54,188 nt of DNA from a virus: the IMG/VR virus record IMGVR_UViG_3300034220_000043, positions 1 to 54,188 of that record; one strand, given 5' to 3'. Below are positions 241 through 46,627 of the stretch, one piece after another. Every line of letters begins with the position of its first letter. The first letter of the stretch is position 1. Position numbers and translations under genes: made by a program. The notes beneath the pieces are model-generated. The model saw only the letters and a program-made list of their open reading frames with translations. It did no database searches and was not told the DNA's origin.

Positions 241-1050
241 CTACCGTCGCATCACGGCGAGGCCCCGGTAGTTGGCCGTCCGCATCTTCCACGCCGGGTA
301 ACCCAGCTCGGTGAGCGCCATCCCGAACCGGGTCTCGGTCGGCACCTCGTCGGCGTGCGCGCGGGCCCAGGCCGAGAACGCGGTGTAGAGCTTGCGGCTC
401 GACGTGCCCATCGCGTGCGCCCCGCAGCAGCGCTGCACCCACTCCTGCACGAGCGCGGTCTCCGAGCGCGCGGTGGGCGGCGCGGGCAGGGTGTGCGGCA
501 GATGCACACCCCCGGTGGCCTGCGTGGAGGGTTCGCCGAGCGGACGGACACTGGGCGCGACCTGCGGTTGAGCGCCGGAGAGCAGAGCGGCGATCTGCGC
601 GAGCTGCCCCTCGGCCGCGGCGGCCCTGGACACCAGGTCCTGCACGAGCGCCACCGGGTCGACGACCGTCACGGTCTGGGCGGGCTGCTGCGCTACCTCC
701 GCCTCCCGCGTGCGCACCGCGAAGTACGCCTGGGCCGCAGCGATCTCCGGCTTGTTCGGGTCGCCGTTCATCGCGACGAGGTACGCCGCGAAGCGGGTGA
801 GGTCGTAGTCGGTCAGTGGACGGTTGCCGTTGATCTTCTGGGATCGCAGGAAATTGCTGGTCACGTCCATGCCGACGTTCTCCGCGGCGCGCATGGCGCG
901 GTTCAGCGGGACCTCGAAGTTCTCCCAGCGCGCGTAGTTCGTCAGCGTCTGCAGGTCGCGGGCGGACCACGTCTCCACGCCCTGCTCGTTGACGCTGCGG
1001 ATCGAGTCGAACGGCGAGGCGCCGCCGGTGCGGTCGAGGGTGGTGTTCAC
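241..1050 (-). CDS. DinD-like phage antirepressor with a primase-type C-terminal domain
   Basis: 269 residues. The N-terminal part (about 10-125) matches the DNA-damage-inducible protein D / phage antirepressor type: SPFDSIR, WSARDLQTL and YLVAMNGDPNKP are seen. After a variable linker, residues about 216-269 (LYTAFSAW ... ANYRGLAV) resemble the C-terminal winged-helix end of this phage's own primase-helicase. The GTG start at 1050 overlaps the stop of the upstream protease gene (GTGA) and has GAAGGAG just before it, which decides the start over longer in-frame extensions. Proteins of this type interfere with phage repressors or act in the SOS response; the role here is inferred. Two other long minus-strand frames over this region are out of register and lack family features. 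Confidence 0.75.
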   Translation of the reverse strand: MNTTLDRTGGASPFDSIRSVNEQGVETWSARDLQTLTNYARWENFEVPLNRAMRAAENVGMDVTSNFLRSQKINGNRPLTDYDLTRFAAYLVAMNGDPNKPEIAAAQAYFAVRTREAEVAQQPAQTVTVVDPVALVQDLVSRAAAAEGQLAQIAALLSGAQPQVAPSVRPLGEPSTQATGGVHLPHTLPAPPTARSETALVQEWVQRCCGAHAMGTSSRKLYTAFSAWARAHADEVPTETRFGMALTELGYPAWKMRTANYRGLAVMRR

Positions 1051-1409
1051 GTCGTCTCCTTCGGGGTGGTGCGGATGCGGGCTGCGTGCTCGATCTCCAG
1101 GGTGAGGCGCTCGACCTCGACCTCCTCGACCGCGGCGTTCTCCACGCCGGCTGGGCCGCGCAGCAGGTGCAGGAGCTCGTGCACCAGGGTCGGTCGCCAC
1201 TCCTCGTCGGGGAGCCCGGCGTCCAGCTCGATGCTCTGCGTGGCGAACCAGGTGCGGCCCATGAAGCCGACATCGCTGAGGTCGGCCACGCGGATGGTGA
1301 CCTCGCCGCGACGGGCGAGCACCTCGCGCAGCACGAGCGCGATGGGCAGGACGTCGGCGAGGGACGGGGGTTCCGCGGGCACGGCGGAACCAGGGATGAT
1401 GGTGCTCAC
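1047..1409 (-). CDS. ImmA/IrrE-like HExxH metalloprotease (left copy)
   Basis: 120 residues with a zinc-protease signature HELLHL near residue 76, followed by LRGPAG and an acidic EEVEVERL segment. The same layout (HELMHL, KRGP, EEEEVQRE) is present in the protein at 50645-51142, so the two are probably paralogues. ImmA/IrrE-type proteases cleave or inactivate repressors of mobile elements. The GTG start at 1409 is preceded by GGAGG at good spacing. The gene is translationally coupled to the antirepressor behind it, so both probably act together on lysogeny control. It lacks a recognisable DNA-binding domain. Confidence 0.65.
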   Translation of the reverse strand: MSTIIPGSAVPAEPPSLADVLPIALVLREVLARRGEVTIRVADLSDVGFMGRTWFATQSIELDAGLPDEEWRPTLVHELLHLLRGPAGVENAAVEEVEVERLTLEIEHAARIRTTPKETT

Positions 1410-1434
1410 GGTCAGCCTCCACGGGGCTGGTCGA

Positions 1435-1470
1435 GGGCCCGGACTCGGTGTGTCAGCACCGGCCGGGCCC
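1435..1470 (-). terminator. Hairpin between HTH regulator and protease
   Basis: GGGCCCGG at 1435-1442 pairs with CCGGGCCC at 1463-1470. It lies in the 83-bp gap after the HTH gene stop and before the protease start and may attenuate read-through; no T-run follows. Confidence 0.4.
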
Positions 1471-1492
1471 GCTCTGTGTTCGGGGTAGGGAG

Positions 1493-1762
1493 CTACTGCC
1501 CGTCGCGTCGCGGTCGACCCATCGGTCGCGGCGGTTCGACCCAGCGCGATGCGGCGGACTCCGTGACGCCGAGGCGCTCGCCGATGTCGGCGAACAGCCA
1601 GCCGCGCTTCCTCAGCTCCACGACGATCTCGTGCAGCGTCAGCTGACCGCGTCGGCTAGCCGACGCCAGGTCGAGCAGCTGCTCGTCGGTCAGGTCGTCG
1701 TAGTCGAGCTCGCCCTTCATGAGACGGACCAGTGCATTCATCACCTCGGGGGTCAGGTCCGC
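1493..1762 (-). CDS. Small helix-turn-helix regulator
   Basis: 89 residues from a GTG at 1762. The C-terminal half holds a helix-turn-helix (LFADIGERLGVTESAASRWV), preceded by an acidic helix and ending in a basic GRPRRDGQ tail. The reading frame extends upstream to a TTG at 1807, but that lies inside the 35-bp palindrome and would overlap the promoter, so GTG 1762 or ATG 1741 are better starts; no clear ribosome site precedes either. It sits next to a divergent palindromic promoter and is the natural candidate for its autorepressor, comparable in position to KorSA/KorA-type regulators of actinomycete conjugative elements. The family is not firmly recognised. Confidence 0.6.
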   Translation of the reverse strand, partial: ADLTPEVMNALVRLMKGELDYDDLTDEQLLDLASASRRGQLTLHEIVVELRKRGWLFADIGERLGVTESAASRWVEPPRPMGRPRRDGQ

Positions 1763-1792
1763 CACGCGGCGGATCGTAGGGCATCGGGGCCG

Positions 1793-1827
1793 CTTGAAAC
1801 TTAGCAAGCAACTTGCTAGGTTTCAAG
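1793..1827. promoter_or_regulatory. 35-bp near-perfect palindrome with overlapping divergent promoters
   Basis: Arms of 16 bases with one mismatch flank a 3-base centre: the left half reads CTTGAAACTTAGCAAG and the right half mirrors it. On the plus strand TTGAAA (1794-1799), a 17-base spacer and TAGGTT (1817-1822) form a promoter. On the minus strand TTGAAA (1826-1821), 17 bases and TAAGTT (1803-1798) form another. Because of the symmetry each -10 overlaps the other's -35, so a dimer bound at the centre would block both. It should drive the small-gene/transfer module rightward and the HTH regulator leftward. Confidence 0.7.
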
Positions 1828-1851
1828 TACACCAACACCGAGGAGCTCCCG

Positions 1852-1989
1852 ATGCCCAGCAGCACCGACCAGCCCACCGAGACCAGCGCCGAGCAGCCGA
1901 CGCCGGCCCCCGCCCCGCGCTGCGGGGTCTGCGCGACGATCCCCGCCGCGGTCGTCGCCCGGAACACCTGCCCGAACGAGGCCCGCTGA
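1852..1989 (+). CDS. Small CxxC protein, first gene of the rightward module
   Basis: 45 residues beginning ATG with GAGGAG at 1840-1845. The N-terminal half is Pro/Thr/Glu-rich and unstructured; a CGVC pair and a further Cys near the end suggest metal or redox binding. Its stop overlaps the next start (TGATG). Transcription would begin about 20 bases upstream at the palindromic promoter. No family recognised. Confidence 0.5.
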   Translation: MPSSTDQPTETSAEQPTPAPAPRCGVCATIPAAVVARNTCPNEAR

Positions 1990-2147
1990 TGGCCCGCCGC
2001 GACCACCAGCCGGACAGCCGCAGGCGCAGCACCGAGGCCGAGCCGGGACAGCACCCGCCCGGCCGGCCGTCGCTGCCGCCCAGGCCCAGCGACCCCGACC
2101 ACCTCGGCGTCGACCCCCGCGACCACGTGCAGCGAGGTGGCCGCTGA
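1989..2147 (+). CDS. Small basic, disordered protein
   Basis: 52 residues, rich in Arg, Pro, Asp and His, with no predicted fold. It is supported mainly by one-base stop/start overlaps (TGATG) on both sides, the coupling pattern used throughout this module. Function unknown. Confidence 0.4.
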   Translation: MARRDHQPDSRRRSTEAEPGQHPPGRPSLPPRPSDPDHLGVDPRDHVQRGGR

Positions 2148-2275
2148 TGCCCGGCACCGAGCAGCCCGCCGAGACCCGCGCCGAGGCCACGGCCCGCATC
2201 CACGCCGAGCTGAAGGCGGCGGAGGCCCGGCTCGACGAGCAGACGCGCGCCGCGAGCACGAGGGAGCACCGATGA
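2147..2275 (+). CDS. Small charged helical protein
   Basis: 42 residues. The middle (AEATARIHAELKAAEARLDEQ) looks like a single amphipathic helix or short coiled coil. It is coupled by TGATG upstream and ATGA downstream. Function unknown. Confidence 0.45.
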   Translation: MPGTEQPAETRAEATARIHAELKAAEARLDEQTRAASTREHR

Positions 2276-2436
2276 CGAGTCGCCGGTGGGACAAGCAGCC
2301 CGAGACCGAGAAGGACGCCCGGTTCTTCGACCTGCGCGAGTCCGGCTACCGCGGGTGGATCGACCAGGACGGCAACGCCGTCTCCGCCGCCGAGAAGGCG
2401 CGGCTCGACGACGAGGCGCAGAAGGGCGGCCGGTGA
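2272..2436 (+). CDS. Small hypothetical protein (FFDLRESGYRGWIDQDG)
   Basis: 54 residues starting at an ATGA overlap. A compact aromatic centre (FFDLRESGYRGWIDQDGNAV) is followed by an acidic helix, which looks like a folded mini-domain rather than noise. Its stop overlaps the next ATG (TGATG). Not recognised. Confidence 0.5.
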   Translation: MTSRRWDKQPETEKDARFFDLRESGYRGWIDQDGNAVSAAEKARLDDEAQKGGR

Positions 2437-2634
2437 TGGGCTGGCTGCGTGGGCACGACCGGTTCGTCGAGCACCGGGACGACTTCGACGCCGCGTCCGC
2501 CGCGGTGGACCACGCCAGGACCCCTGCCGAGCGGAACGCGGCGCTGGAGCGGAGCCGCGTCGCTGGAGCGGAGCCGCGTCGCACTGGAGGCGATGGAGCA
2601 GCAGCGCGCCGCCAACGGCAGGAGCGGCGGGTGA
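2436..2634 (+). pseudogene. Small gene frame-shifted by a 19-bp tandem duplication
   Basis: ATG 2436 opens a frame reading MGWLRGHDRFVEHRDDF. A perfect 19-bp tandem duplication (2543-2561 and 2562-2580) shifts the phase by +1. Without one copy the gene would end ALEAMEQQRAANGRSGG at TGA 2632-2634, overlapping the GTG start of the next gene (GTGA), the usual arrangement here. As written, the frame runs on into the downstream peptidase, giving a 246-residue fusion (2436-3176). Confidence 0.65.
2543..2580. repeat. 19-bp perfect tandem duplication
   Basis: Two adjacent identical copies of a 19-mer starting GCTGGAGCGGAGCCGC. Because 19 is not a multiple of three it moves the reading frame and joins two otherwise separate genes. 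A recent slippage event or an assembly error are both possible. Confidence 0.9.
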
Positions 2635-3176
2635 AGGCGCTGCTCGCCGCTGCCGCGCTGGGCCTGCTGCTGGCGGTCCAGCGCGGCGCCCTCGACGGGC
2701 TCGGCCCGGCGCTGCTGCTCGTCCTCCTGGCCGCCGTCGCCGTGTGGGCGCTCGGCGGACGCTCCACCGCGGGCCGCTCGGTCGCCGTCCGCGGCCACGC
2801 ACACGGGTCCGGCGCCCTGCAGGAGGTCGCGACCCACGAGGCCGGCCACGCCGTCGCGGCGCGCGCCCTGGGCGGCCGGGTCCGCTCGGCCACCGTGTCG
2901 GCCGACGGCCGGAGCGGGCTCGTGCGGGCGACGCTGCCGACGCAGTCCAGCCAGGCGGCCATCACCTTCTGGGCGGCCGGGCGCATCGCCGCGGGCACCT
3001 CGCGCGGGGCGAGCGCCGACGACGACCTGATCCGCCGCGAGCTGCGCACCGTGCCGTCGGCCGAGCGCGGCCGGATGCGGCGCGCCGCCGAGCGGGACGC
3101 CGCCCGCATCGTCAGCCGGTCCGCCGGCCCCATCCGCCGCGACGCGGCACGACTCATCGAGAGGAGACGGCTGTGA
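2631..3176 (+). CDS. Membrane-anchored HEAGH metallopeptidase-like protein
   Basis: 181 residues from GTG 2631, with an AGGAG at 2620-2624 that supports independent initiation. Two hydrophobic segments (LLAAAALGLLLAVQ and ALLLVLLAAVAVWAL) suggest a membrane anchor or hairpin, followed by VATHEAGHAVAARALG, the zinc-binding helix of M41/FtsH-type peptidases, and a basic C-terminus (AGRIAAG, ADDDLIRREL). Such proteins occur in actinomycete plasmids and prophages; the substrate is unknown. The upstream small gene now reads in frame into it because of the tandem duplication, so the current product may be the fusion. Confidence 0.65.
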   Translation: MKALLAAAALGLLLAVQRGALDGLGPALLLVLLAAVAVWALGGRSTAGRSVAVRGHAHGSGALQEVATHEAGHAVAARALGGRVRSATVSADGRSGLVRATLPTQSSQAAITFWAAGRIAAGTSRGASADDDLIRRELRTVPSAERGRMRRAAERDAARIVSRSAGPIRRDAARLIERRRL

Positions 3177-3328
3177 GGTTCGCCGACCTGGTTTCGATCG
3201 GGGTGATGGCCCTGGTCCTGTTCGTCGTGGTCGTCGCCGCCCTGCTGGCTGCCGAGGCGGCGTCCCGCCGGATCTGGCCCGACCGGCGCGGCCTGGCCAG
3301 CTGGCCGTCCAGGCGAGGACCGTCGTGA
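3173..3328 (+). CDS. Small single-pass membrane protein
   Basis: 51 residues from GTG 3173, with a GAGGAG ribosome site. One hydrophobic helix (VMALVLFVVVVAALLAAEAA) is followed by a basic, aromatic tail. It overlaps the stop upstream and the start downstream by GTGA. Its position before the SpdB-like gene recalls the small Spd membrane proteins of actinomycete conjugative plasmids, but the resemblance is positional only. Confidence 0.55.
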   Translation: MRFADLVSIGVMALVLFVVVVAALLAAEAASRRIWPDRRGLASWPSRRGPS

Positions 3329-33116: not shown

Positions 33117-36100
33117 TCACACCGAGTCCTGCCACGCGTACGAGGGCTCGCTCGGGTCGGCCACGATCGACACCCCGAGCAGCTCGGTCTCCATGCACCG
33201 CACCAGCTCGGCGGTCGCCTCAGCGGCGTCCTCGGCGGGCACGAACACGTCGAGCTCGTCGTGCACGGGCAGCAGCGTGCAGGTTCCCCAGCGGGTGTCG
33301 CGCCAGCGCACGAGGGTGTCGACGAGCAGCTCGCGGGCGGTGCCCTGGATGCAGTAGTTGGGCCCCTTGTGCGGGTACTCGCGCGGCAGGTGGATCACCC
33401 GGCCCGAGTAGCTCGGGTACTGGGTGGCGCCGCGCTTCACGGCCTCGCGGATGGACGCCGACCACGCGGCCAGGCCGGGGGTCAGCCCGTCGAGGGTGTC
33501 GATGACGGCCTGCATGACGTCGTGGCCGACGCCGACCTGGGTGGCGAGGGTGGAGATCCCGCCGCCGTAGATCCGGCCGAACACGCCCCGCTTGGCGATG
33601 TACCGGTTGGCCTTGGTCGCGCCCTCGCCCCAGACCTGGCGGGCGATCTCGCCGTGCAGGTCGCGGCCCTCGGCGAGGAACGCCAGGAGCGTCGGGTCCT
33701 GGCTCAGCGCGGCGGCCACGCGCAACTCGACCCCGGAGAAGTCGGCGCCGATCATGAGCTGGCCGGGGTCGGCGGTGATGCAGGCCCGGACCCCGCCCTC
33801 GCGGGAGAGCTGCTGCAGGTTGGGTCGCACGCAGCTCATGCGGCCGGTGTCGGTGCCGAGGGTGTAGACCGTCGGGCGGGCGCGGCCGTCGCCCCGCTCG
33901 CACAGCAGCCGGTAGGGCTCGAGGAACAGCCCGAGGGCGGTGTCGTGGTGGCGGTGGTCGAGCACGGCGCCGACCAGCTCCCCGAGCGGGCCCTCAGCGC
34001 CCCGCAGCGGCTCGAGGACGCCGGCGGCGACACTCGGGCGCCCGGTGGCCGTGCGCGGCAGCGGCGCGCCGAGCTGGAGGGCGACCTCGGCCACCTGCTG
34101 GTCCGAGCCGGGGTTCTCCACGCCCAGCGCGCGGACCCGCGCGGCGGCGGCGTCGCGGCCGGCGGTGTGGCGCTCGGTCATCTCGCGGACGTGCTCGGCG
34201 TCGATCCGCACGCCGCGGTGCGCGACCCGCGCGGTCATGCGCTGGGCGAGGCGCTCGCGCTCGTAGACCGCGGCGTCGGGCCGGGGCAGCGCGCGGGCGA
34301 GCGCGGCGGTGTCGAGCACGTCGGAGGCGGCGTAGCGCAGCATCGTGGTCGAGCCGGTCGCCACCTGCGCCCAGCCGGAGCGCTCGGGCGGGGTGTCGAC
34401 CTTCGTCGAGGTGAGCCAGCGCCCGGCCTTCCACAGCGCGGCCCGAGCGGCGTCGGCGGCCGGCGCCGTGGAGGCCGCCCCGAGCACCGCCCCGGCGAGC
34501 GCCTTGAGCCCGGGATCCGAGCCGGTGGACTGCGGGTCGGCGAGCTTGGCCGGGATCACGGTGTCGTGCATCCGGTCCCAGCCGCTCTCGGCGTCGATGA
34601 GCCCGGCGTGGGCCAGCGGCACCAGGTCGGCGGTCGCGGAGTGGGCGTGCAGCACCGGCGCGGCGGCGAGCAGCTCGCGCACCAGGCTGGCGTGGTCGAC
34701 CGGGTGCAGCACCGCGGCGGCGATCTCGTCGCCGAGCTGCACCGAGCGCAGCTCGTAGTCGGCGTGGCCGACCGGGTAGCCGGAGGTCTCCACGTCGACG
34801 GTCAGCGCGCCGGAGCGGGCGAGCGCGGCGCGCACCACCTCGCCGGCCTGGGCCGGGGTGACGGGCAGCGTGTTGCCGGCGCGGTCGACCACGGCGGGCA
34901 GGCCGAGCACCTCGCCCTGCGCGGTGGCGATGGCGTCGAGCCGCTTCTCCTCGGCCAGCTGGCGCCGGGCCTCGGCCTTGCTGATCTTCGCCTCGGTGGC
35001 CCGGGCGGCGGCCTCGGTCCTGCTCACGGAGCGTGGCGTAATCGCCTTCTCCGGCGCCGGGGTCGGCGGTGTGGACGGTCGCGGAGGCGGATTCGTACCC
35101 CCCACACCGTCCACCGCGCCCGCTACCTGGGGGTTCTCGCCTTCTTCGCCTCGGGTGTGGAGGGTCGGAGGGTTGGCCCCTACCGCCCTTCTATGAGTGG
35201 TGTTTTTCCACTGTTCTTCTTCTCCATCTACTGTATGACGAGACCTACCCTCCACACCCTCCACAGGAGATACAAAAACAGGGGGTGACATGGTGTTATC
35301 GGTTGTGGAGGGTACTGCGATAGACCCCCCACCAACCCCCCACAGACCCTCCACACGAGGCGCGAACGGCGAGGCCGAGCCGCCGGGAACGGCCGAGGGC
35401 GCGCCGGGGGCGGGCGCCGAGGCGGCGGGCGGCGGGGTCGGTGTGGAGGGTTGCGGGAAGCCCGGGTCGGCCCGCACCACTAACGGTCTGTAGTTGGCGT
35501 CGCGGCGCCTGAGCACGCCGAAGCCGAGCTCGTTGAGCGCCCGGCCCCAGGCCGTCTCGGTGAGGATCGAGGAGTCCCGGATGCCGGCGTCGCGGCACCA
35601 GCCCCGGAACCCGACGTAGAGCTGGTGCGACCTGGTGCCGTGCTCGTCGGGCTGGACCGACTCGGTGAGCCACTGCCCGAGCACGTCCTGGGAGCCGACG
35701 AGCTCGTCCATGACGAACTGGACGGCGAGCGGCGCGGCCGAGGTGAGGGCGCTGTCGGGGTTGGCCAGCCAGCCGGCGGCCTCGCGCATCAGCAGGGCGA
35801 GCACCCCGGGCGCCTCGGCGGCCCAGCGCGCGCCGCTGAGCGCCTGCCTGCGGGCCCGGACCTCGGCCGGGTCGCCGTTGCACGGCAGCAGCCGGATCCG
35901 GCGGCGCACGGCCGCGTCGGACACCGAGGGCGGGGTGTTGGAGGTGAGCACCAGGGTGTGGGTGGGCCGGAAGGTGATGGGGTTCTGGTTCATGGCGTTG
36001 CCGGTGAGCTCGCCGCCGCCGGTGAGCTGCTTGAGCCGCTCGGTGTTGCGGGTGCCCTCGCGCATGGCCTCGTCGATGAACGACAGCCGCCGGCCCTTGA

Positions 36101-38015
36101 GCGCGAAGACGATGCTGGCGTGGCCCTCGCCGCTGCCGAGGAGGCGGTGGTCGGCGGCGTGGGCGTAGGACCCGAGCACCTCCATGATCAGCGTGATGAG
36201 CGAGGTCTTCCCGGTGCCGCCCTCGCCGAACAGGATGGGCAGCGCGGCGTCGGCGTAGCCGGTGGTGGCGATGGACAGCACGCGCAGCGCCCAGGCGCGG
36301 ACCTCGGGGTCGGGCCACACCGCGGCGAGGAAGGCGTCCCACAGCGGCGTCGGGACGGGCGCGGGGCCCACGCCGGCGGCGACGAGGTGCGGGCCGTGCG
36401 GGTCGAGGTGCGTGGCGATGGTGGGCACCTCGGCGCTGGCGCGCAGGTCCCACGGCCAGCCGCCGGCCCACAGCACGTCGGGCTCGCGGTCGAGGTCGGC
36501 GATGCGGACGGTGGCGGGGTGGCGGCCGCCGTCGGTGTGTCGGCGCATCGTGGCGGCGACCGCGGCCGCGGGCCCGCTGGTCATCATCCGCAGGCGGCGC
36601 TTGTAGGCGCGCTGCGCCGGGCTGGCGGGCTCGCCCTTGGCCACGGGGGTGGGGTCGCCGTCGGGCATCAGGGCGGCGCACTCCGACACCACCCGCCCGG
36701 CGAGGTCGCCCTCCATCGACCACTGCTCGGCGCCGCGCAGCAGCCACGCGCTCTTGGTGTCGCTGGCGCGGCGGGCCATGTAGAAGCAGCGGCGCAGCAT
36801 CGCGTCGGCGAGCGGGTGGTCGAGGTCGACGCCGGGGTCGAACGCCTCGGTGCCCACGACCTGGGCCCAGGACGGGTCGACGAGCTTGGGCGGCAGCTGC
36901 AGGTGCAGCGGCTCGAAGGGCTCGGGGTCGTCCTCGCCGGCGCGGCGGTCGTCGACCGGGCGGGGGCGGGCGTCGACGGTGACCCCGGTCAGCCCGGCCC
37001 ACCCGGGGCCGCCGGGCAGGGTGCAGGGGTCGGCGAGGTGCTGGACGCCGCCGAGGACGGTGACGGCCTTGCGGGCGCTGGAGAGCAGCATGCGCTCGAA
37101 CTCGGCGTCGCGGGCCTCCCCGGCGGTGACCGCGGCCCACTGGTCGCGCAGGGCGGGCAGCGCGGCGCCGAGGCCGGCGTGGCCCATGGCCGCGGACTGG
37201 ACGAGGCGGTGCGTGCGGGCGGTCATGGCGTCGTGGCGGGCGCCGACGTCGGGGTCGGCCAGCGCGCGGGCGGTGGCGTCCAGGGCGTCGTACATGACCG
37301 AGCAGGCGGGCCGGTCGTCGGCGCTCAGGGCGGCGAGCAGCGCCTCCCCGCTGGCGTGGCTGGCCGAGGCGGGGGCGGCGTCGGTGGCGCCCTCGCGCAG
37401 CCCGTCGACCCAGGCCGGGGGCAGCTCGGGCAGCTCGCCGGGGGTGGGGAGCCGGGTGGCGGGGGCGCCGTCGGGGGCGTACCAGGTGTAGGCGGTGCCG
37501 ACGTCGCCGTGCGGGGAGGGCCAGACCACGGCGTAGCGGTGGTGGCGCTGGATGATCTCGATGTCGGGGCGCAGCACGGTGGCGTAGCGCCCGGCCGGCA
37601 CGCGGTAGAACCGGATGCGGCTGGGGCCCTGCCCGCGGGCGGTGGAGCTCCACGTGGGCGGCAGCAGCCCCCAGCGCGCTTCGGCGGCGGCGAGGGTCTG
37701 GCCGCCGACCTTCACCTTGCCGCTGGGGGTGGTGTAGTCGTCGACGTCGATGCCGACGATCCCGTCGGGCAGCCGCAGCGCGATGGAGTGCCCGGCGTAG
37801 CCGTTGCCGGCCCAGGCGGCGAGCAGCTCGGCCGAGGTGTCCTGGCCTTCCTCGCCGGTGTAGCCGGTGGGCGGCGGGCTCTTGGTCTCGGCGGGCACGG
37901 GCAGCACGGCGGGCCAGCCGGCGTGGTGGTAGAGCGCGGCCGCGGAGGCGAAGACGGGGGGCGCGGTGGTGGTCACGGGCGGCCGCCGAGCGGGCAGGGG
38001 GACTTCATCGTTCAC
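33117..38015 (-). CDS. Primase-polymerase / SF3 helicase / DNA polymerase I fusion
   Basis: 1,632 residues in one uninterrupted frame from GTG 38015 (GTGA overlap). Residues about 10-240: archaeo-eukaryotic primase-polymerase (IVGIDVDDYT, IEIIQRHHRYAVVW). About 560-780: superfamily 3 helicase with Walker A FGEGGTGKTSL near 597, RLSFIDEAMREG and TLVLTSNTPPS, then a winged-helix end (LYVGFRGW ... DANYRPLVV). About 850-1000: a low-complexity linker. About 1070-1200: 3'-5' exonuclease (LTVDVETSG, HSATADLV). About 1290-1632: family A polymerase with motif A IGADFSGVELRVA, motif B AKRGVFGRIYGGG and motif C PVHDELDVFV. The three activities are normally separate phage proteins. It could prime, unwind and copy phage DNA as one molecule. 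Confidence 0.85.
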   Translation of the reverse strand: MNDEVPLPARRPPVTTTAPPVFASAAALYHHAGWPAVLPVPAETKSPPPTGYTGEEGQDTSAELLAAWAGNGYAGHSIALRLPDGIVGIDVDDYTTPSGKVKVGGQTLAAAEARWGLLPPTWSSTARGQGPSRIRFYRVPAGRYATVLRPDIEIIQRHHRYAVVWPSPHGDVGTAYTWYAPDGAPATRLPTPGELPELPPAWVDGLREGATDAAPASASHASGEALLAALSADDRPACSVMYDALDATARALADPDVGARHDAMTARTHRLVQSAAMGHAGLGAALPALRDQWAAVTAGEARDAEFERMLLSSARKAVTVLGGVQHLADPCTLPGGPGWAGLTGVTVDARPRPVDDRRAGEDDPEPFEPLHLQLPPKLVDPSWAQVVGTEAFDPGVDLDHPLADAMLRRCFYMARRASDTKSAWLLRGAEQWSMEGDLAGRVVSECAALMPDGDPTPVAKGEPASPAQRAYKRRLRMMTSGPAAAVAATMRRHTDGGRHPATVRIADLDREPDVLWAGGWPWDLRASAEVPTIATHLDPHGPHLVAAGVGPAPVPTPLWDAFLAAVWPDPEVRAWALRVLSIATTGYADAALPILFGEGGTGKTSLITLIMEVLGSYAHAADHRLLGSGEGHASIVFALKGRRLSFIDEAMREGTRNTERLKQLTGGGELTGNAMNQNPITFRPTHTLVLTSNTPPSVSDAAVRRRIRLLPCNGDPAEVRARRQALSGARWAAEAPGVLALLMREAAGWLANPDSALTSAAPLAVQFVMDELVGSQDVLGQWLTESVQPDEHGTRSHQLYVGFRGWCRDAGIRDSSILTETAWGRALNELGFGVLRRRDANYRPLVVRADPGFPQPSTPTPPPAASAPAPGAPSAVPGGSASPFAPRVEGLWGVGGGSIAVPSTTDNTMSPPVFVSPVEGVEGRSRHTVDGEEEQWKNTTHRRAVGANPPTLHTRGEEGENPQVAGAVDGVGGTNPPPRPSTPPTPAPEKAITPRSVSRTEAAARATEAKISKAEARRQLAEEKRLDAIATAQGEVLGLPAVVDRAGNTLPVTPAQAGEVVRAALARSGALTVDVETSGYPVGHADYELRSVQLGDEIAAAVLHPVDHASLVRELLAAAPVLHAHSATADLVPLAHAGLIDAESGWDRMHDTVIPAKLADPQSTGSDPGLKALAGAVLGAASTAPAADAARAALWKAGRWLTSTKVDTPPERSGWAQVATGSTTMLRYAASDVLDTAALARALPRPDAAVYERERLAQRMTARVAHRGVRIDAEHVREMTERHTAGRDAAAARVRALGVENPGSDQQVAEVALQLGAPLPRTATGRPSVAAGVLEPLRGAEGPLGELVGAVLDHRHHDTALGLFLEPYRLLCERGDGRARPTVYTLGTDTGRMSCVRPNLQQLSREGGVRACITADPGQLMIGADFSGVELRVAAALSQDPTLLAFLAEGRDLHGEIARQVWGEGATKANRYIAKRGVFGRIYGGGISTLATQVGVGHDVMQAVIDTLDGLTPGLAAWSASIREAVKRGATQYPSYSGRVIHLPREYPHKGPNYCIQGTARELLVDTLVRWRDTRWGTCTLLPVHDELDVFVPAEDAAEATAELVRCMETELLGVSIVADPSEPSYAWQDSV
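35069..35451. repeat. Iteron-like TGTGGAGGGT repeats: candidate replication origin
   Basis: GTGTGGAGGGT or one-base variants occur on the plus strand at 35069-35079 (GGACGGT variant), 35155-35165, 35304-35313 and 35441-35451, and on the minus strand at 35104-35114 (variant), 35247-35257, 35256-35266 and 35346-35356. Copies are read in different frames (PST, VEG, TLH), so the conservation is at DNA level. Between about 35190 and 35310 lies an unusually A+T-rich stretch. Position inside the replication gene recalls the lambda ori in gene O. Confidence 0.65.
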
Positions 38016-39856
38016 GCACCTGTCGGGGAGCAGGGTTCGGTCAGAGCGGGGCCGGCCTGGTCGGGGAGGTTCAGGCCGAGCCGGTGGGCGATGAGGGGCA
38101 GGTAGGTGGGGTCGCGCTCGATGCCGAAGGCCCAGAAGCCCTCGTCGCGGGCGGCCTGCAGGGTGGTGCCGGAGCCGGCGAACGGGTCGAGTACCACCCC
38201 GCCGGGCGGGGTGACCAGCCGGACGAGCCACCGCATGAGCGCGAGCGGCTTCACGGTGGGGTGCGCGACACCGTCGACCTTCGGGCGTTCGGAGGTGGGG
38301 GCCTTCGCGCAGTAGAAGAACCGCGACGCCCCGCCGGAGTCCGCGCCCCGGGCGGGGACGCACTCGGTCTGCCCGGCGAACGCGCCGTACGCGTCGCGGA
38401 ACTTGTCGCTGCCGCGGCGGGTGGGGTTGGCTCCGCTGGTGAGCGCGCCGGTCTGCGCGTCGAGCTCGGCGGCTGCGTCCTCGTCCAGCACCACGTTCGC
38501 CGGCCACCGGCCCTGCTGAACATGGCCTGCCGTACACTTAGGGCATGCCGTGGATCGATCAGCAGGGGTACGTCCGGATGATCCATCAGGGTCGGGAGAC
38601 GCGAAAGCATCGAGTCGTCGCGGAGCAGATGCTCGGGCGCCCTCTCCTGTCGACGGAGCACGTTCACCATCGGAACGGGACGAAGTCGGACAACCGTCCG
38701 GAGAACCTGGAGATCGTGGATAACCGGTCTCACCTGCGCGAGCACTGGCAGGAAGGGCACTACGACCCGCGGGTGAAGCGTCAGACGAAGCCGGAAGCGA
38801 CGTGCTCAGGCTGCGGTCACTTCGGCCGTCTGCGGGCGAAGGGCATGTGCAGCTCGTGTTACTTCCAGGACTACTACCAGCGGCACCCGGAGAAGTGGGC
38901 GGCGTACCAGGCTCGACGCCGACGCGCGTAGCGTCGATGTTCAGCGCGCCCGTCCCGTGCGCCAGCACCGTCGCCGCCACCGTCCCGCCGCACGGCTTGC
39001 GCGCGACGACGATCGGCTCGTGGCCCGGCTTGAGCGCGGTTCCCCAGCCCTGCCAGCGGACAGCGTCCGGCGTCGATTCGCCGACCCGTTCAAGCCTGTT
39101 TTTCGTGGCGTTCCAACCGTCCCGTCCGTCAGCGCGCATGAATCCGACCCCCTCAGCGGGTCGGGTGGCGAACTCGACGCCCGGGGTGCCCTTGCGCCCG
39201 TTGAGGCGCCACACCTCGACGTCGAGCTCCGGGCCTACGCCTAGAAACTCCCGCAGCCAAGGCCACTTATCCAACGGGGGAACTTGCGAGTTTCGGTCAG
39301 GACTGAACCAATATTGAGACACATTGGCAGTGCCAAAGTGTTCGTCGATTTCACGGCGGCTGCGCCCAGACTGGGCGAGGGCGGCGCGAAGGGCTCGGCA
39401 GACAGTCGCCCTAGGATCGACGTCCTCGGTCCGCAGCTTGTCGATCGCCTTGCCCACATCGAGCGACTTCGGGAAGCCGGAGCCGTACAGCCAGGAGATC
39501 GAGTCGCGGATCTCGAACCCGGCCAGCCGCACCGACAGGCCCATGAGGTCGACGGTGCGGGACCCGGCGAACGCGAGCAGGTGCCCGCCTGGCTTGAGCA
39601 CCCGCAGACACTCGTCCCACACCGCCGGCGGCGGCACGAACCCGTCCCACGCCGCCGACATGAACCCGCGCCCGTCCGGGACGTGCTCCCGGTTGCCGGA
39701 GCACCAGGCGGTGACGGCCTGCGCGATGGCGGCCGGGCGGTGCTCGGCGAGGCCGTAGGGCGGGTCGCACACGATGGCGTCGAACTGCTCGTCGGCGAAG
39801 GTCCGCAGCACGTCGAGGCAGTCGCCGTCGAGCAGCACGGGCAGCGGCGCGGTCAT
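38012..39856 (-). CDS. DNA N4/N6 (adenine/cytosine) methyltransferase with antisense HNH insertion
   Basis: 614 residues from ATG 39856 (ATGA overlap). Motif IV DAIVCDPPYGLAEH lies near residue 28 and motif I VVLDPFAGSGTTLQAA near the C-terminus, the beta-class order. VLKPGGHLLAFAGSRT and HPTVKPLALMRWLV are also seen. Between NIDATRV and GRWPANVV, where relatives usually have a short variable stretch, there are about 140 Ser/Pro/Gly-rich residues antisense to a complete HNH gene; the frame stays open. A second A+T-richer patch (about 39235-39350) encodes a further inserted segment (TVCRALRAALAQSGRSRREI). It may protect phage DNA from restriction. Confidence 0.8.
   Translation of the reverse strand: MTAPLPVLLDGDCLDVLRTFADEQFDAIVCDPPYGLAEHRPAAIAQAVTAWCSGNREHVPDGRGFMSAAWDGFVPPPAVWDECLRVLKPGGHLLAFAGSRTVDLMGLSVRLAGFEIRDSISWLYGSGFPKSLDVGKAIDKLRTEDVDPRATVCRALRAALAQSGRSRREIDEHFGTANVSQYWFSPDRNSQVPPLDKWPWLREFLGVGPELDVEVWRLNGRKGTPGVEFATRPAEGVGFMRADGRDGWNATKNRLERVGESTPDAVRWQGWGTALKPGHEPIVVARKPCGGTVAATVLAHGTGALNIDATRVGVEPGTPPTSPGAAGSSPGSNTSCTCPSPADGRSDRSLSTSLPASSDASPAGRSALPASARAGETGYPRSPGSPDGCPTSSRSDGERAPSTGEGARASAPRRLDAFASPDPDGSSGRTPADRSTACPKCTAGHVQQGRWPANVVLDEDAAAELDAQTGALTSGANPTRRGSDKFRDAYGAFAGQTECVPARGADSGGASRFFYCAKAPTSERPKVDGVAHPTVKPLALMRWLVRLVTPPGGVVLDPFAGSGTTLQAARDEGFWAFGIERDPTYLPLIAHRLGLNLPDQAGPALTEPCSPTGA
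38545..38931 (+). CDS. HNH homing endonuclease, antisense inside the methyltransferase gene
   Basis: 128 residues. The HNH motif is clear: HRVVAEQMLGRPL, EHVHHRNGTKSDNRPENLEI, then a C-terminal zinc finger (CSGCGHFGRLRAKGMCSSCY). Composition is visibly less G+C-rich than the flanks. TACACT at 38533-38538 lies six bases before the ATG, suggesting its own leaderless promoter. It is encoded on the plus strand, opposite to every other early gene, entirely within the methyltransferase frame. Such genes spread by cutting uninserted alleles. Confidence 0.85.
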   Translation: MPWIDQQGYVRMIHQGRETRKHRVVAEQMLGRPLLSTEHVHHRNGTKSDNRPENLEIVDNRSHLREHWQEGHYDPRVKRQTKPEATCSGCGHFGRLRAKGMCSSCYFQDYYQRHPEKWAAYQARRRRA

Positions 39857-44335: not shown

Positions 44336-45309
44336 GATCCGGCGACGGGCGCGGGCGGGAGCTGCTGCCCGACGAGCCCGGCGAGGAGCTGCTGCTGCGC
44401 GGGGTCCAGCCCCGGCAGCCCGGCCGGGACCTGCGGCACCCCCGCGGGCGGGCCGGCCGGCGGCTGGGCGGGCGCCTGCTGCTGCTGCTGCGGGACCGGC
44501 GGGGCCAGGGGCTGCGGCATCGGCGGCGCGGGCGGCATGGCCTGCTGCGGGGCCTGCTGGGGCGGGGCCGGGGGCTGGTACTGCTGCACCTGCTGGGGCG
44601 GGGCCGGCGGCTGGTACTGCGGCGCCGGGGCCTGGGCCGCGGGGGCCTGCGGCTGCTCCTGCGCGGGGGCCGGGGGTGCGCCTTGGGGCCGCTGGTAGAC
44701 GACCTGGTAGGTCTTCGCCGGGTTCATGCCGACGCCCGCGGGCCGGGTGCCGGTGCAGGTGATCTGGATGACCGCGCCCGCTTCGGGCGGTCCGTCCGGC
44801 GCTCCGGCCGCGCGCATGGCCCGGCCGAGCTCGTCGCGCGCACCCGGCCCGACGTACCACTGGGCGAGCCCGTCGGGCCGGTCCGCGGTGGGCTGCGTCT
44901 GCAGCGGCACCTTGAGGATCATCTTCGGGCGGCCGTCCTTGAAGAACGAGGGCTGGCCGTTCTGCGGGTTGGTCTGCTGCTGCACGTCGGAGTGGGTGAC
45001 CTCGCGGGTCACGATCCCGACGTGGGTGGTGCCCACCTCGAACTTCAGCGCGGCGCCGCCCCCGACGCTGGGCTGGCTGTAGAAGGCGTCGAGGGTGCCG
45101 GCCGCCAGCTCGGGCGCCGGGGGCTGGCCGTAGCCCTGCGGGGCGCCGTACTGCTGCGGCGGGGCCGGGTAGCCGGGCTGGGCCTGCGGGTACTGCGGCG
45201 CCGGGTAGCCCATCGGCGGAGGCTGGTAGCCCATCGGCTGCTGAGGCACGGGCGCGTACTGCGGGGTGCTGGGGAACTGCGGGGGCTGCGTGTACTGAGG
45301 CTGCGTCAT
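44332..45309 (-). CDS. SSB-like protein with Pro/Gln-rich disordered arms
   Basis: 325 residues from ATG 45309. A central segment (about 75-185: ALKFEVGTTHVGIVTREVTH, GRPKMILKVPLQTQP, GAVIQITCTGTRPAG) looks like an OB fold that could bind single-stranded DNA. About 70 residues before and 140 after it consist almost only of Pro, Gln, Tyr, Ala and Gly (QPMGYQPPPMGYPAPQYPQ). Such arms favour phase separation or multivalent binding. It lies among replication and recombination genes. Confidence 0.55.
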   Translation of the reverse strand: MTQPQYTQPPQFPSTPQYAPVPQQPMGYQPPPMGYPAPQYPQAQPGYPAPPQQYGAPQGYGQPPAPELAAGTLDAFYSQPSVGGGAALKFEVGTTHVGIVTREVTHSDVQQQTNPQNGQPSFFKDGRPKMILKVPLQTQPTADRPDGLAQWYVGPGARDELGRAMRAAGAPDGPPEAGAVIQITCTGTRPAGVGMNPAKTYQVVYQRPQGAPPAPAQEQPQAPAAQAPAPQYQPPAPPQQVQQYQPPAPPQQAPQQAMPPAPPMPQPLAPPVPQQQQQAPAQPPAGPPAGVPQVPAGLPGLDPAQQQLLAGLVGQQLPPAPVAGS

Positions 45310-45815
45310 GGTGTGGTGATCTCCGGTTCCAGAATCGAATTCGTTGTCAGGATGTTGAGGAGTGCGAACTCTCCCCACGCTTCGATCGCTGCTGCGTTGT
45401 ATGCAACTGCTGCATCGACTGCGTCGATATACCGCCCCAGCTTGATCTGGCGGTTGTTAATGGTGATGTTGGCTTGCCACTTGCGATTAGTGCGGTCCCA
45501 AGAGACGCCCTTAAAACCCGACGTGTTGTTTCGGGGAATACGACGGTTCGCTTGATTCTGCGAGCGCGTGCTGATGCGCAAGTTGCTGCGCCGGTTGTCG
45601 AGGCCATCGTGGTTGCGGTGATCAACCTGCTGGTCCGGGCCAACTGCGACGAGAAGCTGGTGCAGATAGAGGCTGCGGGGCCGGCTGTAACGAACCGCGT
45701 AGACGCACTTGCGCTTCGTCACGGGGTGCCAGGTAGAGCTGTCGGCCAAGTCCCTATCCGCCGCATCGACGAGCAGTCGGAATCCCCCCGGCAAGTGCTT
45801 CTCGTAGACCTCCAT
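45306..45815 (-). CDS. HNH homing endonuclease with AP2 DNA-binding domain
   Basis: 169 residues from ATG 45815 (TGATG overlap). The HNH core is LYLHQLLVAVGPDQQVDHRN, then HDGLDNRRSNLRISTRSQN; an AP2 domain follows (SGFKGVSWDRTNRKWQANI, KLGRYIDAVDAAVAYN). Base composition and codon use are clearly less G+C-rich than neighbours, which marks recent arrival. It is inserted between the nuclease and SSB-like genes yet keeps stop/start coupling to both (TGATG and ATGA). Confidence 0.88.
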   Translation of the reverse strand: MEVYEKHLPGGFRLLVDAADRDLADSSTWHPVTKRKCVYAVRYSRPRSLYLHQLLVAVGPDQQVDHRNHDGLDNRRSNLRISTRSQNQANRRIPRNNTSGFKGVSWDRTNRKWQANITINNRQIKLGRYIDAVDAAVAYNAAAIEAWGEFALLNILTTNSILEPEITTP

Positions 45816-46627
45816 CAGGCCCGCCCTGCGGAGTGGCCGGGGCAGCCGGAGCCGCCGACGCGCGCGGCCTCCGGGCGGAAGAAGGGACAGAACGCGCACG
45901 CCGAGGTGTCAGCGGGCACGTCCATCAGCTGGGCGAGCCCGGCGCTGATGGCCGCCGCCCACTGCTTGCGGTAGGTCAGCTCGGGCACGACGACCTGGTC
46001 GAGCAGCTCGTCGTCGGCGGGGGTGTAGGGGCGCTCCCACACGTAGAGCCCGTCGAGGCTGGCGGCGGTGCGGGGGTAGGCGAGCAGCGCGACCCGCTGC
46101 ACGGGCAGGCCGAGGCGCCGGTAGCCGCGGGCGTAGAGCAGCATCTGCACGACGTAGTGCCGGGGCGGGCCGGCGGCGGAGCGCACCTTCGCCATCGACG
46201 ACTCGCCGAGGATCTTGTGGTCGCCGAGGGTCTGCTCGGCGGCGTCGTACAGGTCGGCGGTGCCGTCGTGCCCGTCGATGGGGGTGACGCGCTGCTCGGG
46301 CACCCAGCGCAGGTGGCCGAGCCGGTCGTTCTCGGCGCGGAACGCCTCCTCCAGCCAGGCGTGCCCGGCGGTGCCGAGGATGGAGGGCCACGGGTCGATG
46401 ACGTGGTTGGTGCGCGGCAGCCCGGCCAGCTTGCCGGCGACCTGGCGGTGGCAGGTGTGCCCGATCTCGGACGGGCCGAGGTGCACCTGCAGCGATCGGG
46501 GCGCGCGCTCGGCGTGGGCGTGGACGACGCGCCGGATCTCGCCGGCGTACCGCGCGGCCCAGGGGGTGTTGCCGTTGAGCTGCACCGCCTTGGCCCCGGC
46601 CATGAAGTCGGCGGGGGACAGGCTCAC
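45815..46627 (-). CDS. Cas4/RecB-like PD-(D/E)XK exonuclease
   Basis: 270 residues from GTG 46627 (GTGA overlap). Nuclease motifs are HDGTADLYDAAEQTLGDHKI (the D ... DxK pair) and HYVVQMLLYARGYR (QxxxY). Four cysteines (IGHTCHRQ near 55; ACAFCPFF and GSGCPG at the end) match the Fe-S cluster of Cas4-type enzymes. Likely acts in phage recombination or replication with the adjacent SSB-like protein. Its frame is open without a stop far upstream into a zinc-ribbon gene, so the start rests on coupling and the family boundary. Confidence 0.75.
   Translation of the reverse strand: MSLSPADFMAGAKAVQLNGNTPWAARYAGEIRRVVHAHAERAPRSLQVHLGPSEIGHTCHRQVAGKLAGLPRTNHVIDPWPSILGTAGHAWLEEAFRAENDRLGHLRWVPEQRVTPIDGHDGTADLYDAAEQTLGDHKILGESSMAKVRSAAGPPRHYVVQMLLYARGYRRLGLPVQRVALLAYPRTAASLDGLYVWERPYTPADDELLDQVVVPELTYRKQWAAAISAGLAQLMDVPADTSACAFCPFFRPEAARVGGSGCPGHSAGRA

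Follow-up and report, generated by a model that had tools for sequence, protein, structure and literature searches.

An HNH homing-type endonuclease gene nested antisense within an unbroken DNA methyltransferase frame at the same loop of four phage methyltransferases

The window, that is, the whole stretch of DNA analyzed here, is an IMG/VR virus contig of 54,188 bases with 74% GC. Its minus strand carries a methyltransferase ORF that runs unbroken from an ATG at 39856 to a stop at 38012, and within this frame, on the opposite strand, lies a complete HNH endonuclease gene. The features of the locus are the following.

38012..39856, minus strand: beta-class N6/N4 DNA methyltransferase, the host gene, 614 aa including read-through of the insert (Pfam, PHROG, structure match, motifs)
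38489..38512, minus strand: host motif GRWPANVV, one border of the insert (comparison of loci)
38513..38930, unstranded: inserted element, approximate extent from the GRWP side to the NIDA side (comparison with MKC-IRE-02, PopTart, Girafales, Shauna1, L119, and L041)
38515..38534, plus strand: homing-site-like sequence GCTGAACATGGCCTGCCGTA upstream of the HNH gene, like the uninserted NIDACR codons minus 3 nt and inverted relative to the host
38533..38538, plus strand: -10-like element TACACT, 6 nt before the HNH ATG, with TANNNT kept in three of four copies
38545..38931, plus strand: HNH_3 homing-type endonuclease gene, nested antisense, 128 aa, ATG start (Pfam, AlphaFold, structure match)
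38921..38944, minus strand: host motif LNIDATRV, the other border, whose A-T codons, read on the opposite strand, give the HNH stop TAG

The initial annotation had placed a complete HNH gene antisense within the methyltransferase frame, and its coordinates need no change, the ORF spanning exactly 38545-38931 on the plus strand. The 128-aa product matches Pfam HNH_3 (E = 1.5e-11; 44.2 bits against a curated cutoff of 24.8), and the core residues H41, H42, N50, and N54 are invariant in 19 sequences. The zinc finger ascribed to it was found as a zinc-finger-like C..C...C..C motif (C87, C90, C102, and C105), which is common to all three of the HNH copies aligned. The AlphaFold model of the protein (pLDDT 86.8) has as its best PDB match I-HmuI (1u3e; E = 7.3e-3, probability 1.0, TM 0.44), and a profile comparison also recovers I-HmuI (E = 0.008); the protein thus shows, as a partial match, the I-HmuI-like fold of HNH_3 homing-type endonucleases. 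Codon usage and divergence identify the HNH frame as the primary frame of the insert, with the host merely reading through: the HNH frame has a GC3 of 0.83 (methyltransferase core, 0.89) and the insert read in the host frame one of 0.44, 59 of the 102 DNA differences from the copy in Mycobacterium phage MKC-IRE-02 fall at HNH codon position 3, and the amino acid identity of the insert between these two is 75% in the HNH frame versus 40% in the host frame. The Pfam match, the homologues, GC3, and the codon-position pattern rule out a chance antisense ORF. A search of bacterial genomes with the HNH protein returned only three distant Firmicutes matches. The window also holds a further HNH_3 gene (45306-45899, minus strand), which has a weak match to the AP2 domain and is probably a homing endonuclease of the free-standing type.

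The host protein matches Pfam N6_N4_Mtase (E = 1.5e-23) and PHROG 67, “DNA methyltransferase” (E = 4.5e-65), and the top PDB matches of its core are CcrM, M.BceJIV, and M.RsrI. It has the Rossmann core and motif order of the beta class (DPPY N-terminal, FxGxG C-terminal), with both window motifs intact: DPPY at residues 31-34, near the N terminus, and DPFAGSGTT at 557, near the C terminus. As first described, the frame is open through the insert, contributing about 140 Ser/Pro/Gly-rich residues between NIDATRV and GRWPANVV. In the AlphaFold model, insert residues 316-446 have a pLDDT below 50 and the core mostly exceeds 90, predicting a disordered segment within a well-folded enzyme. Comparison with uninserted relatives, which had been suggested as the way to define the ends, places the whole insert at about 38513-38930; these ends are approximate, since the native loop is itself variable. 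The HNH gene fills 387 of these ~418 bp, starting about 30 bp from the GRWP codons, and its stop TAG (38929-38931) falls within the NIDATR codons. The host NIDA codons and the HNH flank also share an inverted repeat of 8 to 9 bases (GCTGAACAT in the window), too short to interpret. A very long ORF (33117-38537, minus strand) combines DUF5906 (helicase-like), 3'-5' exonuclease, and family A DNA polymerase regions and is possibly a fused replication protein.

The arrangement recurs. A tblastn search of phage records with the HNH protein found a 75%-identical copy in MKC-IRE-02 (L002), on the strand opposite to a gene annotated only as “methyltransferase,” and scans of IMG/VR added two further records, L041 and L119, each with an HNH gene antisense in a methyltransferase. 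All four copies, the window included, share the same site, strand, and antisense register, the insertion lying between NID[AN][TC]R (or the variant NINGCR) and GR[WY]P. The HNH gene thus sits in a variable loop behind NIDxxR, in agreement with the proposal that a variable loop had been the target. In a set of 84 distinct methyltransferases that contain both motifs, the median loop length is ~41 aa, and 80 loops do not exceed 56 aa; the four longer loops (132, 135, 140, and 164 aa) are exactly the four with an antisense HNH gene. We looked in these 84 loops for a long loop lacking an HNH gene, which would have spoken against the insertion, and found none. Short loops are present in close relatives of the hosts, namely, L057 and L096 for the window, L112 for L119, and StAnnes and PopTart for MKC-IRE-02. 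The C-terminal methyltransferase motifs are kept in all four hosts; L119 has DPPA in place of DPPY, as does L250, a relative with a nested sense-strand HNH gene.

We then considered whether the open host frame might be a by-product of high GC content and codon bias, with the HNH gene inserted at random and the methyltransferase dead or dispensable. Stops are few in high-GC DNA, and when synonymous codons were permuted within each HNH gene, the window copy alone came out open in the host register with a probability of 0.18 (0.08, 0.02, and 0.06 for the other copies). These probabilities are not independent, because the four HNH genes are homologous, and they cannot be naively multiplied. Close relatives of phage ShiLan, moreover, do without this methylase, which is hence not essential (PMC11855218). 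Against this, the host register is open in all four copies across HNH divergence down to 51% identity, including L041 at 55% GC, with 0 stops observed versus 7.7 expected, while the remaining four alternative registers gave only 2 open results in 16 tests; the three copies outside the window had been found by HNH or methyltransferase similarity, not by the openness of the host frame. As controls, 85 HNH relatives taken as free-standing had 479 stops in the same register versus 542 expected. Only two of these had an open register, and they turned out to be nested genes themselves: that of L216 lies antisense in a terminase intein, and that of L209 on the sense strand of another methyltransferase-like ORF. 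No clearly free-standing control is therefore open. Eleven further nested HNH genes (those of Filuzino, Cr-LKS3, L040, the second site of L041, L060, L186, L250, L251, and L260, all sense and in the same family, plus L209 and L216) have 0 stops versus 35.4 expected, a total biased by selection, since openness was the criterion for L209 and L216 and most others were recognized through one ORF spanning the HNH gene. Together with the retained C-terminal motifs, these counts make a mere by-product unlikely; judged from the sequences, the open frame in the four phages exceeds chance. Methyltransferases split by an HNH gene were not seen among the loci examined, which were gathered by a search not aimed at split genes.

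Next, we examined whether the HNH gene has moved independently of its hosts. On a quick tree of 87 methyltransferases, built with the loop left out, the antisense-HNH hosts are scattered and have uninserted sisters, and the antisense label requires four changes, all four forced by starred branches. Scattered presence at one site in related hosts, as is characteristic of homing-type endonucleases, is therefore found here. Relative to the window, the HNH protein and the host core are 75% and 57% identical in MKC-IRE-02, 71% and 50% in L119, and 51% and 51% in L041, and between MKC-IRE-02 and L119 the values are 67% and 53%; in all pairs with L041 the two are about equal. The scattering of the hosts, and the fact that the three closest HNH proteins are more alike (67-75%) than their hosts (50-57%), argue that the gene moves; given the equal identities of the window and L041, this conclusion rests on the tree and the other three copies. 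Base for base, MKC-IRE-02 is identical to the uninserted PopTart allele as far as GACGC, in the NIDA codons, beyond which its sequence becomes abruptly different. Read from tree and sequences, the pattern is one of four separate acquisitions of the gene at a single conserved site.

The 5' flank of the HNH gene bears on its expression. The -10-like element initially assigned to it is present as TACACT at 38533-38538, and at the same distance, exactly six bases ahead of the ATG, are TACACT in MKC-IRE-02, TATCCT in L119, and TATCAC in L041. In Mycobacterium tuberculosis, TANNNT serves as the -10 motif at 73% of the primary start sites and at 76% of the antisense ones (PMC3898074). At this spacing the mRNA would start at the ATG, so that the HNH protein is probably made from a separate, leaderless antisense mRNA with a TANNNT promoter. 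Just upstream, the flank reads CTSAACAT-n-SCCTGCCGTA; this is similar to the uninserted target CTSAACATCGACGCCTGCCGC with three bases removed and covers sequence from either side of the insertion point. In three copies, 0 to 2 of 2,000 shuffles reach its score against the best-fitting target; the comparison with other segments of the same sequence is weaker, 1 to 4 of them reaching the score, and in L041 the likeness is not significant. In view of these mixed statistics we keep the homing-site mimic as a lead rather than a result. A search of IMG/VR with the mimic pattern TSAACATNNCCTGCCGTA found no nested case beyond L119, recovered again as L172.

Such a flank, with what looks like a binding site near the gene's own promoter, and the retention of both frames by the host would also suit a gene that is not mobile, either domesticated as a regulator or kept as a domain of use to the methyltransferase. 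We regard this as quite improbable, given the scattered distribution with uninserted sisters and the lack of conservation of the insert's host-frame sequence.

The statement that no intron or intein is needed held up, as neither is detectable and the host frame is open without any removal. Nuclear group I introns with antisense endonuclease genes do exist (PMC9548176), and the insert could in principle be a self-splicing intron, of group I or another kind, that is removed as RNA. However, the window has no Rfam family at the gathering threshold and the insert no relevant match at E values up to 5, and with 387 of ~418 bp taken up by the HNH gene there is no room for a ribozyme core outside its ORF; removal as RNA, named at the outset as a finding that would refute the proposal, is thus very hard to credit. 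Least credible of all is an unusual intein removed from the protein: inteins do occur in this methyltransferase family (L178; ShiLan gp65 [PMC11855218]), but Pfam finds no intein domain in the 614-aa protein at E values up to 0.1, and the insert is of low complexity and predicted to be disordered.

We therefore favor, at a probability of roughly 80%, an HNH homing-type gene that inserted antisense in the methyltransferase loop, requires no splicing, and homes into NIDACR alleles. A stand-alone HNH gene would have inserted, together with its own short 5' flank, in the loop behind the conserved NIDxxR, and its sequence would be held stop-free in the host register, making splicing unnecessary; the methyltransferase would consequently be produced with a disordered loop of ~130 residues. 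The HNH protein would be expressed from the antisense mRNA, probably through the TANNNT promoter that lies 6 nt ahead of its start codon. In alleles without the insert, it would cut the conserved DNA encoding NIDACR, and recombination repair would copy the insert in, which would explain its arrival at one site in divergent methyltransferases. In this scheme we infer cleavage, homing, promoter use, the enzyme's tolerance of the insert, and methyltransferase activity.

The locus had been called an unusual mobile-gene strategy, and this stands only in part: the antisense orientation appears to be new, but the general strategy has a precedent in the same family. Arsenault, Gosselin, and Gogarten (2025) described the “ShiLan domain,” a sense-strand, out-of-frame HNH in the same methylases with an open host frame and no splicing found (PMC11855218), and a further methylase with an out-of-frame HNH was announced in the same year (PMC12613952). 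Both systems hide the HNH gene in an alternative frame of the same methylase family, keep the host frame open, show no splicing signal, and are scattered in distribution, and leaderless translation has been proposed in both. The ShiLan HNH, however, is a sense-strand gene inserted at ALK/PAFEPVVVARKP, has ~170-195 aa, and carries flanking zinc fingers; here, all four genes are antisense, have inserted behind NIDxxR (in the NIDACR/GRWP loop) rather than at ALK/P-EPVVVARKP, and, in the window, encode 128 aa with a promoter-like antisense site of their own. The antisense arrangement goes unmentioned in PMC11855218, as do antisense and HNH in its 2023 precursor (PMC9957025), and the antisense form is apparently undescribed in the literature compared, which did not cover a preprint on actinobacteriophage inteins with “non-canonical architecture.” Given the ShiLan precedent, we regard the antisense HNH gene as a variant of an arrangement first reported in 2025, from which it differs in strand, in site, and probably in having a promoter of its own. 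Because an antisense gene can carry its own promoter, it bears on how such hidden genes are expressed, a question left open by the sense version.

Several known homing systems share single traits with this one. I-HmuI, a phage HNH homing endonuclease, has the same HNH_3-type core but is encoded in a self-splicing group I intron, whereas the nested HNH gene has no intron. I-DsqI, from nuclear group I intron genes, is likewise expressed antisense to its host gene, yet there the host is spared by RNA splicing and here by an open frame (PMC9548176). The I-TevI gene of T4 is also preceded by a homing-site-like sequence overlapping or adjoining the promoter, and I-TevI represses its own promoter through this homing-site copy (PMC2988022). 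It is, however, a GIY-YIG enzyme in an intron with an autorepressor operator, while operator binding here is suggested by the resemblance.

Homing endonucleases are thought to spare their hosts through introns, inteins, or an intergenic position. The mobile gene described here appears to spare the coding sequence by opposite-strand overprinting, and an annotation as one methyltransferase ORF can conceal a second gene. One of the four copies belongs to an isolated M. smegmatis phage, which opens overprinting and the gene's own promoter to test in a single system.

A bolder extension, which we consider rather doubtful, is that phage homing endonucleases generally live by overprinting, without splicing, on either strand, in several frames and sites, and even in the terminase intein of L216, under selection that maintains both reading frames; the antisense form would be self-driven from a leaderless promoter, and its 5' flank would be an uncleavable homing-site copy acting as an operator.

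Further nested or interrupted genes came to light during the survey. In L216 (IMGVR_UViG_3300006917_002417), the HNH gene (2360-2833, plus strand) is antisense in an ORF (609-3308, minus strand) for a terminase large subunit (Terminase_6N) with an intein (Pfam Intein_splicing, E = 1.1e-5, below its cutoff); it lies mid-intein, where the endonuclease domain is expected, and the host frame has 0 stops versus 4.2 expected. In L041 (IMGVR_UViG_3300018476_000251), a single methyltransferase (765-3107) holds the antisense HNH gene and a second nested ORF, in sense orientation at an RFFY motif site, with zinc-ribbon-like Cys pairs and an HH motif; Pfam assigns this second ORF to no family. Sense out-of-frame HNH genes, so far known mainly from mycobacteriophages, are found in the methyltransferases of L040, L060, L186, L250, L251, L260, and L209, at several sites and in frames +1 and +2, with open host frames. 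In the sense inserts of L003, L004, L008, L040, L041 (second site), and L250, the first ~10 codons resemble, by eye, the host sequence after the insert (e.g., ETVKPWPDQ and ATVKPLDLM in L040), a likeness noted previously for ShiLan only (PMC11855218). A methyltransferase relative on a Streptomyces plasmid (L178; NZ_CP134606.1, 827-3400) has an intein-like stretch inside its GSGFPKS motif, and in Mycobacterium phage Ksquared (L146, 980-2582) a methyltransferase homologue is annotated as gp56 plus gp58, with a small gene between them.
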